From an uncultured Bacteroidales bacterium (GTDB taxonomy: Bacteria; Bacteroidota; Bacteroidia; Bacteroidales; Muribaculaceae), in NCBI GenBank assembly GCA_902787185.1, contig CADAFP010000006.1, positions 55,177-119,176 on the forward strand: DNA of 64,000 nucleotides, read 5' to 3'. The stretch's first letter is position 1, and the number at the start of each line of letters is the position of its first letter. This document shows, one piece after another, positions 37,814-54,772 of this stretch. The position numbers and the translations under genes are program-made. The notes beneath the pieces are model-generated. The model was given only the letters and a program-made list of their open reading frames with translations. It was not told the origin of the DNA and did no database searches.

Positions 37814-37855
37814 AATATCTAATATCTTTTATCTAATATCTCTTATCTAATATCT
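37814..37855. repeat. Six-unit 7-bp tandem array at the argS stop (AATATCT type)
   Basis: The units are AATATCT, AATATCT, TTTATCT, AATATCT, CTTATCT and AATATCT, in perfect 7-bp register. The array ends 2 bp from the argS stop codon (minus strand). Confidence 0.9.
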
Positions 37856-37857
37856 AA

Positions 37858-39679: not shown

Positions 39680-39686
39680 GTAAAAA

Positions 39687-39714
39687 GACTTTAGACTTTA
39701 GACCTTAGACCTTA
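39687..39714. repeat. Four-unit 7-bp tandem array upstream of argS (GACTTTA/GACCTTA)
   Basis: Units are GACTTTA, GACTTTA, GACCTTA and GACCTTA without gaps. The array occupies the expected -33 region of the argS promoter. Confidence 0.9.
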
Positions 39715-39748
39715 GTTTTTTAGTTGGCATCCACAAAACTTATCCCCA

Positions 39749-43855: not shown

Positions 43856-44875
43856 ATGTGTGCGCAAAAAATGAATTTCATCAAAAGAACCATAGCCATC
43901 GTATGTGGTGGCGACTCCTCAGAGTATGAGGTATCCCTGCGTTCGGCTCAGGGCATTGACTCAGCATTTGACCACAACCGTTACGACGTTTATATCGTTT
44001 TAATCAGGAAAGAGGATTGGCATGTGAACTTGCCCGACGGCAGCACTCCCAAAATCGACAAGAACGACTTCTCGTTTATCAAAGACGGACAGAAAATCCG
44101 TTTTGACTATGCCTATATCACCATCCACGGCACTCCCGGCGAGAATGGCGTGCTGCAAGGCTATTTTGACATGATCGATCTGCCCTACTCGACCTGCAAC
44201 GTGCTGGTCGAGGCGCTCACGTTCCACAAGTTCGCGCTGAACAACTACCTCAAGGCCTTCGGCTGCTCGGTGCCCGACAGCATCCAGGTGCGCCGCGGCG
44301 TGCCCCATGGCTGGACGGCCGAGAAGGTCAAGGACTATCTGGGTATGCCCTGCTTTGTGAAGCCTACTGCCGACGGGTCAAGCTTCGGCGTGACTAAAGT
44401 AAAGAGTTGTGACCAGCTGGACGATGCCATGGAGTTCGCCTTCAAGCAGTGCGACAACGTGATGATTGAGCGCTTCCTGGACGGCACCGAGGTTACCGTT
44501 GGCTGCTACAAGACCAAGGAGAAATCGGTCGTCTTCCCGGTCACCGAGGTAGTAACCGACAACGAGTTCTTTGACTACGACGCCAAATACAACGGTCAGG
44601 TGGAAGAAATCACCCCTGCCCGCATCAGTGACGAGTTGACCGCCGCCTTGCAAGCCGAGACGTCGCGCATCTACGACATCCTGCACTGCAACGGCATCAT
44701 CCGCATCGACTACATCATCACCAAGAACCCCGACGGCACCGACCACATCAACCTGCTGGAAATCAACACCACTCCCGGCATGACCGCCACCAGCTTCATC
44801 CCCCAGCAAGTCCGCGCCGCCGGCATCTCCCTGACCGACGTCCTCACCGACATCGTCGAGAACCAGTTTTCCTGA
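43856..44875 (+). CDS. ddl: D-alanine--D-alanine ligase
   Basis: The 339-aa ATP-grasp enzyme joins two D-alanines for peptidoglycan. Visible marks are the N-terminal IAIVCGGDSSEYEVSLRSAQ, the HGTPGENGVLQGYFDMIDLP segment, the ATP-binding FVKPTADGSSFGVTKV and the metal-binding LLEINTTPGMTATSF. The start may be 43856 or the ATG five codons later (43871). The stop codon TGA lies in the ACGGA-type repeat that precedes the FHB-suffix gene 30 bp downstream, so the latter is probably read from the same transcript. Confidence 0.96.
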   Translation: MCAQKMNFIKRTIAIVCGGDSSEYEVSLRSAQGIDSAFDHNRYDVYIVLIRKEDWHVNLPDGSTPKIDKNDFSFIKDGQKIRFDYAYITIHGTPGENGVLQGYFDMIDLPYSTCNVLVEALTFHKFALNNYLKAFGCSVPDSIQVRRGVPHGWTAEKVKDYLGMPCFVKPTADGSSFGVTKVKSCDQLDDAMEFAFKQCDNVMIERFLDGTEVTVGCYKTKEKSVVFPVTEVVTDNEFFDYDAKYNGQVEEITPARISDELTAALQAETSRIYDILHCNGIIRIDYIITKNPDGTDHINLLEINTTPGMTATSFIPQQVRAAGISLTDVLTDIVENQFS

Positions 44876-44895
44876 CGGAAACTGGAGGAAACGGA
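44875..44895 (+). repeat. Short ACGGA-type repeat between ddl and the first FHB-suffix gene
   Basis: Two ACGGA cores (44875-44879 and 44891-44895) with degenerate GGA variants between them lie just after the ddl stop codon and in front of the FHB-suffix start. The same core forms the array behind the FHB gene. The array is short and irregular, so confidence is moderate. Confidence 0.6.
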
Positions 44896-44905
44896 TAATA
44901 ATGCG

Positions 44906-45592
44906 ATGGAAGAGCAGAAGAAACCAAAGATTCATCATTATGATGATGGGACGGCAAGTTCGTTGCGGCGAAGGACGAGATACACCGAGTTGCGCTTCTA
45001 TCAGCGCAGTGATGTGCTGTACCAATTGACACAAGTATTTGTCCAGCGTTTCTTGAAACCTTATGGTGACCGAACTGTTGACCAAATGGTTCAAGCTGCT
45101 CGCAGTTCCAAGCAAAATATTGTTGAGGGAAGTAGCGATGGTGAAACTTCACTTGAGAGTGAATTGAAGTTGTTGGGTTTCGCTCGCGGTAGTAACAAAG
45201 AACTGTTGGAAGACTATCAAGACTACATCAAGCGCAAGGGATACACTGAATGGTATGGCAAGCATCCCCGATACAAAGCCATGCTTGACTTTTGCCGCAA
45301 GCATTGGCAGTTTGAAGACTACAAGGACCTGCTACCCAAGATGAATGATGAAGAGATGGCAAATATGGCCATCTGCCTGTGCCATCAGGTGGATGCGGCG
45401 ATGAATAAGTACATTGAGAGGAAAGACCGTGAATTCACTACCGAGGGCGGTGTGCGCGAGCGCATGACTGCCGCTCGCCTGGACCAACGCGGTACTCAAC
45501 GTGAAATCATCGAGCGTCAAGCACGTGAAATAGCAGCCCTCAAGCAGGAAATCGCCCGCCTAAATGCCCTGCTCGACCAAAGAAACGGATAG
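44906..45592 (+). CDS. Four-helix-bundle suffix-domain protein (first copy)
   Basis: The 228-aa protein has an S23/IVP-type four-helix bundle at about 28-170 (GDRTVDQMVQAARSSKQNIV, LLEDYQDYIKRKG) and a C-terminal suffix (GGVRERMTAARL) ending in a predicted coiled coil (IAALKQEIARLNALL). The family is related to proteins encoded in 23S rRNA intervening sequences and to the Avd protein of diversity-generating retroelements, which bind nucleic acid; its own function is unknown. A paralogue lies at 51967. The gene starts 30 bp after ddl and is followed by a large inverted ACGGA/TCCGT array that includes its own stop codon. Confidence 0.85.
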   Translation: MEEQKKPKIHHYDDGTASSLRRRTRYTELRFYQRSDVLYQLTQVFVQRFLKPYGDRTVDQMVQAARSSKQNIVEGSSDGETSLESELKLLGFARGSNKELLEDYQDYIKRKGYTEWYGKHPRYKAMLDFCRKHWQFEDYKDLLPKMNDEEMANMAICLCHQVDAAMNKYIERKDREFTTEGGVRERMTAARLDQRGTQREIIERQAREIAALKQEIARLNALLDQRNG

Positions 45593-45735
45593 AACTTGAC
45601 GGATTAACGGATATAACGTACTGAACGGATATAACGGAGGGAACGGGAATGCCCGTCACCTCCGTTTATTCCGTATTATCCGTTTATTCCGTATTATCCG
45701 TTAACTCCGTAATTATCCGTTACATCCGTCAATCA
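45585..45735. repeat. Large inverted 9-bp repeat array behind the first FHB gene (ACGGA arm and TCCGT arm)
   Basis: The left arm has ACGGA-type cores at 45585, 45599, 45607, 45616 (ACGTA), 45625, 45634 and 45643 (ACGGG). The right arm has eight TCCGT cores at 45661, 45670, 45679, 45688, 45697, 45706, 45716 and 45725. Spacing is 9 bp with single exceptions of 8, 10 and 14. The arms are inverted, so the transcript can fold into a long hairpin. The stop codons of both convergent genes lie within the arms. It may act as a terminator. Confidence 0.92.
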
Positions 45736-51884: not shown

Positions 51885-51947
51885 TCTAGTAAATCTAGAA
51901 AATCTAGTATATCTAGAAATTCTAGATAATCTAGGCTTTCTAGAAAA
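51885..51947. repeat. Seven-unit 9-bp tandem array before the second FHB gene (TCTAG core)
   Basis: Units are TCTAGTAAA, TCTAGAAAA, TCTAGTATA, TCTAGAAAT, TCTAGATAA, TCTAGGCTT and TCTAGAAAA in exact register. The core is constant and the last four bases vary. The array ends 19 bp before the ATG. Confidence 0.95.
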
Positions 51948-51966
51948 AAGCTAAACTTTTATTGTT

Positions 51967-52662
51967 ATGGAACAGGATAATCCCGCAAAAGAAATCGAGA
52001 GCGTTCTTAGGCGACAAACCAATTGGAAAAACTTATGGTTTTACCAAAAAACGGTTGTATTATACCAAATGACTTACGTCTTCACTCGTCGCTTTTTCCC
52101 AAAGTTTGGAGACCGCACAGTGGACCAAATGGTACAAGCAGCGCGATCAGGGAAACAGAACATTATCGAAGGCTCAGCCGACGGTGTGACGTCAATGGAA
52201 ATGGAACTTAAATTGCTGAATGTCGCCCGTTCTAGCATCCAAGAGTTGCTGGAGGATTATGAGGACTACATCATCAGCCACAAATTGAAGAAATGGCTTC
52301 CAGGACATGAACGATACGAGGCGCTGCTAACTTTTTGCCGGGATCATAATCTGCTCCAAGACTATGAAATCTATTTTGAGCGCTGGTCTGATGAAGAGAC
52401 CGCCAATACCGCCATCACCCTTTGTCACATGGTTGACAAAATGATGATGAATTACCAAAAGAAAAAAGAAGAAGAATTTGTAACCCAGGGGGGCATACGT
52501 GAGAGAATGACCGCCGCACGACTGGGATATCGAACCAATCAACGCGAGGCCCTGGAAGCAGCAAACCGCGAAATCGATATTCTCAAGAACCAGATTCATG
52601 CCCTTGAACAAGAGAACCTGCGCCTCAAGGAACACATCAACCATCTGACCAGTAAAATGTAG
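51967..52662 (+). CDS. Four-helix-bundle suffix-domain protein (second copy)
   Basis: The 231-aa paralogue of the protein at 44906 shares GDRTVDQMVQAARS-x-KQNI, ELLEDYxDYI and the suffix GGxRERMTAARL, and again ends in a predicted coiled coil (IDILKNQIHALEQENLRL). It has the S23/IVP-type four-helix bundle at about 25-170. The function is unknown; relatives bind RNA or DNA. It has its own promoter, and 9-bp TCTAG arrays lie on both sides, one in the leader and one after the stop. The start is supported by the absence of other in-frame ATGs before the conserved region. Confidence 0.85.
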   Translation: MEQDNPAKEIESVLRRQTNWKNLWFYQKTVVLYQMTYVFTRRFFPKFGDRTVDQMVQAARSGKQNIIEGSADGVTSMEMELKLLNVARSSIQELLEDYEDYIISHKLKKWLPGHERYEALLTFCRDHNLLQDYEIYFERWSDEETANTAITLCHMVDKMMMNYQKKKEEEFVTQGGIRERMTAARLGYRTNQREALEAANREIDILKNQIHALEQENLRLKEHINHLTSKM

Positions 52663-52675
52663 TACCAGCAAACTA

Positions 52676-52747
52676 GCTAGATAATCTAGATAATCTAGAT
52701 GTTCTAGATAGTCTAGATAGTCTAGATAGTCTAGAGAATCTAGTTTT
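52676..52747. repeat. Eight-unit 9-bp tandem array after the second FHB gene (TCTAG core)
   Basis: Units are GCTAGATAA, TCTAGATAA, TCTAGATGT, TCTAGATAG (three times), TCTAGAGAA and TCTAGTTTT in exact 9-bp register. The array begins 14 bp after the stop and uses the same core as the array in front of the gene. Confidence 0.95.
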
Positions 52748-52832: not shown

Positions 52833-54689
52833 ATGAACAGATTTGTAGAACTGATTCCACAACAGTGCGCCAAGTATGGTGACAGGGAAGCGTTGCGTTT
52901 CCGTGACTATGAGACTCAAGTGTGGTCTTCAATCACATGGAAAGGATTTGCCGAGCAGATTAACCGCGCTGCAGGTGCGTTATATACTGGCGGCATCGAG
53001 CCTCATGGCCGCGTGTGCCTGTTTACCCAGAACTGTCCCGAGGTGTTGATTATCCATTTTGGTGCTTTCTATAACCGTGCGATTCCCGTTCCCATCTACG
53101 CTACGAGCAGCAAGGACGAGGCCGCCTATATAGTGAACGACTCCGAAGCCAACATCCTGTTTGTCGGTGACCAGGGCCATTATGACATCGCCCGCCAAAT
53201 CATCGACGACTGCCCCTCGCTCAAGTTCATCGTTACGCTCAATCCGACGGTGAAGCGCGATGCCGACGACAGGACCACGCTGAATTGGGAAGAGTTCCTC
53301 TCCACTGGTGACAAACTCAGCAAAGAGGTGACCAAGGCCATCGATCAACGCAAGCAGGCAGGTGAGGGTACCGACATCATGTACCTGATTTACACCTCAG
53401 GAACGACCGGTGTTCCCAAGGGCGTGATGCTCACTCACAACAACATGAGTGCGGCGATGGACGCCCACATCGAGCGTTTTGCCCCCATGATCGATGACCA
53501 GAATGACGTGTCGTTGAGTTTCCTGCCCTTCAGCCACGTGTTTGAGTTGGGCTGGACCATGGTGTGCATGTGCACAGGCATACGCGTCGCCATCAACTAC
53601 AACCCCAAGGAAATCCAGCGTGCCGTTAAGGAAGTGCAGCCCAACTACATGTGCAGCGTGCCCCGCTTCTGGGAAAAAGTCTATACCGCCGTCAACGACA
53701 ACCTCGCTGGCGCCAAGCCCGTGGTGCGCATGATGGTCAAGCAGGCCATCCGCATCGGTAAAGTGCGCAACATGAAATATACGCGCCTGGGCAAGAAGGC
53801 TCCCGCTGTGATAGAGAGGCAGTACCAATACTTTGAGAAAAAAGTCTATAGCAAGCTGCGCGGCGCCATCGGCGTGACCGACGGCAAGCTGTTCCCCACT
53901 GCCGGCGCGATGCTGAGCGACAATATCACCGAGTTCCTGCACGCCGTGGGCATCAACATCTGCATCGGCTACGGCCTGAGCGAGACCAACGCGTCGGTGA
54001 GTTTCTTCAAGCCTGGAGAGTGGACGCTGGGTACCATCGGCATGCCCATCTCCAGCATCGAGGTGAAAATCGGCGACAAGAACGAAATTCTGGTCAAGGG
54101 TCCCACCGTGATGAAGGGTTATTACAACAAACCGAAGGAAACCGCCGAGGCGATTGACGCCGACGGCTGGTTCCACACCGGCGACTGCGGCGAGATCGCT
54201 CCCACGGGAGAACTCATCCTCACCGAGCGTCTGAAGGACCTGTTCAAGACCAGTAACGGCAAGTACATCGCACCGCAAGTGCTCGAGACGATGCTGGGTC
54301 AAGACAAGTTCATCGAACAGGTTGCCATCATCGGAGACGGACGCAAGTATGTGTCGGCACTCATCGTGCCCGCCTTTGAAGAGCTTGGCGCCTATGCCGA
54401 CAAGAAGCACATCGAGCACCGCAACATCGAGGAACTGGTCAACAATCCCGACATCCGCAAGATGATTGAGGAGCGCATCAATGACTACCAGAAGGGGCTT
54501 GCCAGCTATGAGCAAATCAAACGCTTTGTACTGCTGCCCAAGGCCTTTACCATGGAGAGCGGCGAACTGACCAACACGCTGAAAATCAGGCGAGCAGTCA
54601 TCAATAAGCGCTACCGTCCGCTCATCGACGCGATGTACGCTGCCGACTACCGTAAGAAAAAAACGGCCGACAAGCAGGTTGAGGAGTAG
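52833..54689 (+). CDS. Long-chain acyl-CoA synthetase (AMP-forming)
   Basis: The 618-aa ANL-superfamily enzyme activates fatty acids to acyl-CoA through an acyl-adenylate. It shows the phosphate-binding loop YTSGTTGVPKGVMLTH (about 189-204), the GYGLSETNASVSF motif, GWFHTGDCGEI and the C-terminal RLKDLFKTSNGKYIAPQVLE with the catalytic lysine region. Length is typical for FadD/ACSL-like proteins. The stop TAG is also the first triplet of a 7-bp repeat array leading to prfB. Confidence 0.93.
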   Translation: MNRFVELIPQQCAKYGDREALRFRDYETQVWSSITWKGFAEQINRAAGALYTGGIEPHGRVCLFTQNCPEVLIIHFGAFYNRAIPVPIYATSSKDEAAYIVNDSEANILFVGDQGHYDIARQIIDDCPSLKFIVTLNPTVKRDADDRTTLNWEEFLSTGDKLSKEVTKAIDQRKQAGEGTDIMYLIYTSGTTGVPKGVMLTHNNMSAAMDAHIERFAPMIDDQNDVSLSFLPFSHVFELGWTMVCMCTGIRVAINYNPKEIQRAVKEVQPNYMCSVPRFWEKVYTAVNDNLAGAKPVVRMMVKQAIRIGKVRNMKYTRLGKKAPAVIERQYQYFEKKVYSKLRGAIGVTDGKLFPTAGAMLSDNITEFLHAVGINICIGYGLSETNASVSFFKPGEWTLGTIGMPISSIEVKIGDKNEILVKGPTVMKGYYNKPKETAEAIDADGWFHTGDCGEIAPTGELILTERLKDLFKTSNGKYIAPQVLETMLGQDKFIEQVAIIGDGRKYVSALIVPAFEELGAYADKKHIEHRNIEELVNNPDIRKMIEERINDYQKGLASYEQIKRFVLLPKAFTMESGELTNTLKIRRAVINKRYRPLIDAMYAADYRKKKTADKQVEE

Positions 54690-54714
54690 GCTTTAGGTGT
54701 TAGGCTTTAGGAAA
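54687..54714. repeat. Four-unit 7-bp array overlapping the acyl-CoA synthetase stop codon (TAGGCTT type)
   Basis: Units are TAGGCTT, TAGGTGT, TAGGCTT and TAGGAAA. The first TAG is the stop codon of the gene. Confidence 0.85.
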
Positions 54715-54736: not shown

Positions 54737-54771
54737 ACTAGAAACTAGAAACTAGGGACTAGAAACTAAAA
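54737..54771. repeat. Five-unit 7-bp array directly before prfB (ACTAGAA type)
   Basis: Units are ACTAGAA, ACTAGAA, ACTAGGG, ACTAGAA and ACTAAAA. The array ends 1 bp before the prfB ATG, so it occupies the translation initiation region. Confidence 0.92.
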
Positions 54772-54772
54772 A

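Follow-up and report, generated by a model that had tools for sequence, protein, structure and literature searches.

A four-helix-bundle suffix gene between two 9-bp arrays, a probable copy of a widespread insertion unit

In the genome of an uncultured Bacteroidales bacterium, one small gene is enclosed by two tandem arrays of 9-bp units with the same core, which raises the question of whether array, gene and array form a single unit and of what kind this unit might be. The window analyzed here is the whole stretch of 64,000 nucleotides around this locus. The open reading frame 51967-52662 on the forward strand (231 amino acids) was confirmed as a four-helix-bundle (FHB) 'suffix' gene, and the locus consists of three features:

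51885..51947, no strand assigned: 5' array of seven exact TCTAGNNNN units with a period of 9
51967..52662, + strand: FHB-suffix gene (TIGR04258 and TIGR02436) of 231 amino acids, from profile matches and a structure model
52676..52747, no strand assigned: 3' array of one GCTAG unit and seven exact TCTAGNNNN units with a period of 9

On the 5' side, TCTAG is found at 51885, 51894, 51903, 51912, 51921, 51930 and 51939, and on the 3' side at 52685, 52694, 52703, 52712, 52721, 52730 and 52739, preceded by the GCTAG unit at 52676. The gene and the seven exact 9-bp units before it had been described in a sequence-only reading of this DNA, and both are present. That reading had also counted eight exact TCTAG units behind the gene, where eight units do carry an exact CTAG but TCTAG is exact in only seven of them. 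The longest exact period-9 chain amounts to seven units on each side of the gene, and chains of at least four units occurred in 0/2000 first-order Markov resamples of each gap. TCTAG is depleted in the window, with 33 matches on both strands as compared to 65 expected, and 25 of these 33 fall within the two arrays. One neighbor of the gene is an MFS gene and the other a 618-amino-acid open reading frame, presumably an acyl-CoA ligase. An Rfam scan of the window gave 0 matches, and the unit does not lie inside an rRNA gene. When genome samples were scanned for any gene between matched arrays, the window gene and three weak, clustered matches in L264 were obtained.

Only two profiles scored above their cut-offs in the window protein, namely TIGR04258 'four helix bundle suffix' (E 4.5e-19, residues 142-189, 68.1 bits, cut-off 40) and TIGR02436 (E 3.6e-8, residues 26-96, 33.6 bits, cut-off 24), and Pfam PF05635 stayed with 26.4 bits under its cut-off of 33.8. 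The profile scans detected no transposase from the unit, and no nuclease or transposase domain above cut-off in any of the FHB proteins scanned. In the structure model (mean pLDDT 78.7, pTM 0.60), a helix bundle is followed by a long C-terminal helix formed by residues 142-230. The eight top PDB matches of this model were chains of the S23-family entries 2gsc and 2rld (probability 1.00), with a best E-value of 0.014 and none below 0.001; both entries contain 5 chains each. The model of the window protein has the four-helix fold of S23, extended by this long helix at the C-terminus. The title of a 2006 report by Lin names five four-helix bundles. Searches of the window protein against padloc and PHROGs gave only weak, chance-like matches, and phage records gave none. 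A toxin-antitoxin or defence gene was considered and rejected, as neither the profiles nor padloc provided a convincing family match.

Four genes of the FHB-suffix family are present in the same genome, two of them in the window (cores CTAG and ACGGA) and two elsewhere (L001, core CTATAG; L004, core TCGA). The second window gene shows the following arrangement:

44875..44895, no strand assigned: two ACGGA before the second gene, merely 16 bp apart and not a proper period-9 array
44906..45592, + strand: second FHB-suffix gene of 228 amino acids, core ACGGA/TCCGT
45585..45729, no strand assigned: 3' arrays of the second gene, with ACGGA units in uneven register, a spacer and then inverted TCCGT units mostly at period 9

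Arrays with the ACGGA/TCCGT core are thus developed on the 3' side only, and because a 5' array is lacking, this gene failed the scan for matched arrays. L004 scores under the family cut-off, and since its TCGA units read by eye at period 8, it was counted as lacking period 9.

In the taxonomic family of the window, the suffix domain was encountered in 108 of 198 sampled genomes. For a study of flanks, 94 suffix loci were assembled, four from the own genome, 30 from the listing of the domain search and 60 picked by hand from it, so that they do not represent a random draw; the suffix gene was located in 93 of them, and L097 was dropped as no FHB was found there. The 5' flanks hold 52.7 exact 5-mer pairs at period 9 per kb and the 3' flanks 33.1, as compared to 4.4-12.0 (5') and 0.5-3.3 (3') per kb at other periods, the multiple 18 excepted, and to 2.3 (5') and 4.1 (3') per kb at period 9 in control stretches. 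By a lenient test requiring at least 3 period-9 pairs, 68 of 90 5' flanks and 57 of 93 3' flanks passed; among controls 5/57 and 19/87 passed, the latter figure being that for downstream stretches, so that the controls are not clean. The sequence-only reading had suggested looking for arrays on both sides of suffix genes. Both flanks passed the test in only 39/93 loci, and homologues devoid of arrays, named in that reading as evidence against it, were rare, as only 5/93 loci failed on both flanks and one of those is L004 with its period of 8. Among the 39 loci with a signal on both sides, 28 have a common core on the two flanks, compared to 19% of cross pairs, or 25 compared to 9.6% when counted more strictly. 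The relative orientation of 5' and 3' arrays is mixed in the suffix set, so inverted ends are not general. Cores and proteins were compared for 73 suffix proteins, 20 of the 93 loci being left out because the gene was split, its translation was short or interrupted, or period-9 pairs numbered less than 4. For pairs without similar DNA context, core similarity followed protein identity (Mantel r 0.305, 0/999 permutations), with the mean core cosine rising from 0.005 at less than 35% identity (17 pairs) to 0.30 at more than 70% (88 pairs). This correlation could also arise simply because gene and array are inherited together.

Plain FHB genes (S23/IVP) are more widely distributed. In the Bacteroidota, the phylum of the window, to which a shared gene or site also links a Prevotella record and named Flavobacterium loci, 185 of the 247 genomes sampled have a TIGR02436 match. 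Around 70 plain Bacteroidota loci, the flank periods are 7, 14, 8 and 16 and not 9, with 24.5/22.4 pairs per kb (5'/3') at period 7, 13.8/8.9 at period 8 and 1.05/0.67 at period 9. In a named set of 80 plain loci from many phyla, the best 80 of at least 585 relatives, period 7 reached 44.0/27.7 pairs per kb (5'/3') compared to 3.5/5.6 in controls; L406, a plain FHB at period 9, is an exception to the rule of period by type. From set A3, L407 and L413 were left out due to internal stops, as were further loci of the same search to limit its size. In a common flank test, from which 3 of the 80 named loci were dropped because of short flanks, at least one flank passed in 66/77 named, 49/70 plain and 83/92 suffix loci, and both flanks passed in 43 (n = 77), 23 (n = 70) and 32 (n = 92), respectively. 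When seven other periods were put to this test, 8 named, 9 plain and 22 suffix loci passed on one flank or more, and control stretches passed in 15/70 cases for the plain set and 14/71 for the suffix set, with both flanks in 1 case each. Around plain FHB genes of both sets (70 Bacteroidota and 80 named loci), the 3' array mostly repeats the 5' array in inverted orientation; inverted 6-mer sharing amounted to 9.97 within the same locus, 4.78 across loci and 6.53 at control positions for the 70 Bacteroidota loci, and to 10.97, 3.84 and 6.90, respectively, for the 80 named loci. Fourteen FHB genes of cyanobacterial plasmids, chosen among 42 matching plasmid records, were inspected by eye, and such an array was seen on at least one side in 13 of them. 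Inverted arrays lie on both sides in L339, L340, L344-L347 and L349, arrays of the same orientation on both sides in L343, an array on one side and a short one or none on the other in L341, L342, L348, L350 and L351, and no clear array was seen in L352. Related genes in many phyla are likewise located between short arrays, with units of 7, 8 or 9 bases. With neighbors called from open reading frames only, plain FHB genes mostly lie in same-strand gene runs, both neighbors being co-directional at 56/67 named and 54/61 Bacteroidota loci, with median gaps of 68-78 bp on the 5' and 47-48 bp on the 3' side; for suffix genes this is the case at 33/72 loci, with gaps of 159 (5') and 125 (3').

Comparison of orthologous sites shows that the array-gene-array unit is gained or lost as a whole. 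For a site in the genus of G303, 30 loci, the best-matching ones of 61 genomes, were compared, with the masked L336 left out. When a chain of at least 2 units was required on both sides, using a motif that had been chosen after the sequences were seen, 17/18 loci with an FHB gene had arrays on both sides and 0/11 loci without FHB had any array (Fisher p 3.5e-7). Exactly 4 units precede the gene in 15 of the 18 gene-bearing loci. By eye, nine loci whose FHBs are 59-65% identical to the reference have CAAAG on both sides, and eight loci with FHBs 67-100% identical to it have CTAAG on both sides. In the own genome, only 3 bp separate the HsdS-domain gene from the HsdR_N-domain gene at L260, and a TCTAG unit occupies this place in G095 and G040; the array boundaries are too blurred to read a target-site duplication. 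Similarly, the gap at L277 measures 34-38 bp in the own genome as compared to 526-539 bp in G135 and G122, which harbor plain FHBs with different arrays at this site. At the site of the window gene, 927 bp are opposed to 96 bp in G205, where a seemingly decayed array is left (by eye); among the loci compared, this MFS-ligase neighborhood is common to the own genome and G205 only. In G193 and G205, a plain FHB with GATTAG arrays occupies the Ddl-amylase gap, which contains a suffix FHB in the window, and in G187 a close relative of this suffix FHB adjoins the same Ddl gene. Different FHBs thus use the same intergenic gaps. In L398, L401 and L419, the FHB site is what we take to be the carA-carB gap. 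The proposal of the sequence-only reading that array, gene and array are one unit is borne out by their joint presence or absence at orthologous sites, by a core that is common to the two flanks of one locus much more frequently than to flanks from separate loci, and by the way in which core similarity follows protein identity.

On these grounds, that is, the anatomy of the loci, the period by protein type, the shared cores, the core-protein correlation and the presence or absence of whole units, we consider it probable (roughly 0.6) that the window gene is a copy of an insertion unit of wide distribution whose arrays are its ends and the recognition sites of its own protein. Such an insertion unit would consist of an S23/IVP four-helix-bundle gene with short tandem arrays on both sides and would insert between neighboring genes, often in operon gaps, with the arrays traveling along. 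The length of the array unit goes with the protein type, plain FHBs having mostly 7 or 8 bp and suffix FHBs 9 bp, and the core sequence with the individual protein. The pentameric protein would bind the arrays as its cognate sites, this binding may drive movement or array spread, and a host enzyme would presumably cut or copy the DNA; loss of the gene, or copying of the ends alone, would leave gene-less arrays dispersed over the genome. We further infer a relationship of these units to 23S rRNA intervening sequences.

A regulatory role of the arrays is possible, though on balance unlikely as the main explanation. Arrays would then be operators or mRNA leader elements bound by an FHB ring, the gene would regulate itself, dispersed arrays near start codons would control other genes and movement would be incidental. 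The TRAP protein binds repeated triplets. Gaps from stop to start codon are often filled by arrays, and the copy number is fixed at the orthologous site, with the same four 5' units in most gene-bearing loci. Translational control through an unknown repeat-binding protein is also proposed in the accessible part of MacGregor (2015; PMC4679880). However, whole units come and go, and the 3' array of plain FHBs is mostly inverted, so that only one of the two arrays would be recognizable to a protein that binds RNA of one strand. It is unlikely, too, that the unit is primarily an RNA intervening sequence, in which the transcript forms a stem between the 5' and 3' arrays, RNase III cuts this stem and the FHB cistron leaves the operon mRNA. 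Mean duplex energies between 5' and 3' flanks were indeed lower within than across loci for the 70 plain (-29.7 versus -20.8 kcal/mol; shuffled -22.3) and for 78 named loci (-43.0 versus -26.9 kcal/mol; shuffled -30.9), and cleavage by RNase III is described for 23S rRNA intervening sequences with terminal inverted repeats in the accessible part of PMC4990558. However, only 21/70, 27/78 and 16/92 (suffix) loci lie under the 5th percentile of cross-locus energies, and suffix loci show little difference (-54.0 versus -46.7, shuffled -46.5). Neither the regulatory role nor the RNA stem need exclude the insertion unit.

An origin as retroelement, in which the FHB would assist, in the manner of Avd, a reverse transcriptase writing arrays on the basis of an RNA template, is improbable; the plain FHB L279 weakly matches Avd (NF033474, E 2.3e-5, 24.6 bits, cut-off 80; PHROG Avd, E 1.6e-7), but the window protein gave no match to an Avd family, either among profile matches at E up to 1 or in PHROGs. 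Polymerase slippage generating repeats in gaps where FHB genes merely sit, although proposed for 7-mers in literature cited by the accessible part of PMC4679880, is very improbable, as the period depends on protein type, the core is kept while spacer bases vary, cores match on both sides and track the protein, and gene-less gaps at the tested site are free of arrays.

The insertion unit resembles several known systems. REP sequences with a RAYT transposase comprise a gene between its repeats and dispersed gene-less copies. The FHB unit is similar in that a gene is flanked by its own repeats with gene-less copies dispersed, but differs by the absence of a transposase domain over cut-off and by ends that are tandem arrays with a variable core. 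The heptamer arrays of cyanobacteria are called STRR. The arrays of plain FHBs are mostly inverted, those of the suffix set are mixed in orientation, and the CTAG core of the window gene is palindromic. According to the accessible parts of PMC4990558 and PMC11270868, the 23S rRNA intervening sequence carries a gene of the same protein family (S23/IVP) within terminal inverted repeats and spreads by insertion, as is proposed for our units, and its origin is called unclear in PMC4990558. In contrast, it sits inside rRNA, whereas the window unit lies between protein genes, has tandem arrays as ends and possesses the suffix domain and the 9-bp unit in addition. The heptamer arrays TAACTGA (MacGregor, 2015) and GGGAATC/GGGGAYT (Rehm, 2015) are, in the accessible text, likewise short, tandem, mostly intergenic and dispersed over genomes. 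The accessible portions of this literature tie no gene to these arrays, with 0 occurrences of 'four helix' and S23 in PMC4679880 and of S23 and XCC0516 in PMC4692102. A link between FHB/S23 genes and flanking tandem arrays was not found in titles and abstract openings of the papers listed, a coverage with subscription journals and preprints mostly outside, or in the accessible parts of PMC4679880, PMC4990558, PMC4692102, PMC6344855, PMC8700078, PMC3936711, PMC10053308 and PMC11270868. The accessible part of PMC3936711 lists IVP genes among CRISPR-Cas-associated functions in a passage without mention of arrays, and genes of the same family are found between cas genes there as in L340, L342 and L349. 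In these three cyanobacterial plasmid loci, the FHB gene lies between cas6/cas4 or cas10/cmr3, and one of its sides or both bear a short-repeat array.

An equal frequency of same-core arrays away from FHB genes had been named in the sequence-only reading as evidence against a link of array and gene, and this is partly borne out: triple TCTAG units occur at nine places in the own genome, two beside the window gene and 7 elsewhere, and many are found in relatives. Such a distribution would agree with a unit whose copies without the gene are scattered over the genome. Triple TCTAG units were found in 16/198 genomes, with 223 forward and 222 reverse hits in G135; the counts include the flanks of the gene itself and overlapping units, and a reversed pattern gives few. 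Among the 12 genomes with at least 10 TCTAG hits, 7 have a suffix FHB with TCTAG core among the loci examined, and in G017, G122, G180, G187 and G001 such a gene was absent among the loci examined. ACGGA arrays matched in 21/198 genomes, 5 of them with at least 10 hits, and a matching FHB is known for two of these five (G000, G187); the predicted match failed for G168, G176 and G102, where none was found at 8 suffix-FHB loci or six plain FHBs checked. Intergenic arrays numbered 39 of period 7 and 6 of period 9 in a 400 kb sample of the own genome, 20 and 11 in 294 kb of G135, and 0 and 1 in 400 kb of G173; TIGR02436 detects nine FHBs in G135, counting those with the suffix, and none in G173. 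Although period-7 arrays are numerous in the own genome, a plain FHB was not found in its 81%-complete assembly. For 43 of 45 own period-7 arrays (464 kb), the core matches a period-7 core beside plain FHBs of relatives, the comparison set being 27 plain FHBs, 21 from the own genus and 6 from another genus of the family. Random sets from the 70 Bacteroidota loci gave 22.0 core matches on average and 39 at most (500 draws), but contain fewer distinct cores (134 versus 218), and some of the excess may therefore reflect size.

These data allow a bolder proposal, which we put forward tentatively and at somewhat less than even odds, that FHB/S23 proteins are the missing agents of dispersed 7-, 8- and 9-bp arrays, each writing or spreading its own core with the architecture setting the unit length, and that they represent a new class of mobile elements with protein-matched micro-array ends, of which the rRNA intervening sequence would be a special case. 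The FHB link may connect a protein with short tandem repeats of bacteria for which no cause had been known, and a gene family often bounded by arrays, with period by type and core by protein, is a directly testable candidate. If the insertion unit is correct, the 23S rRNA intervening sequence would be set within a larger class.

Some minor observations were made on individual loci. L004, L493 and L503 form a divergent suffix-FHB group with TCGA or CGATA units of about period 8 by eye, and the C-terminus of L004 is cysteine-rich and looks like a zinc ribbon. In the window, period-7 intergenic arrays occur in gaps without FHB at 37814-37857, 39686-39715, 54687-54711 and 54737-54772, with cores such as TATCT, TTAGA, TTAGG and ACTAG. 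G168, G176 and G102 have many ACGGATTAC-like period-9 arrays, in G168 often as inverted pairs, and the suffix FHBs L491 (G176) and L492 (G168) lie among repeated CCTTTG/TGTGGGAGC modules of different make-up. At L275:8030-8200, L266:14340-14470 and L268:10220-10330 of the own genome, an array is followed by a GGCATCCGCCA-bearing spacer and an array of opposite orientation, and a similar GGCATCCGC spacer adjoins the FHB L506 in G205.
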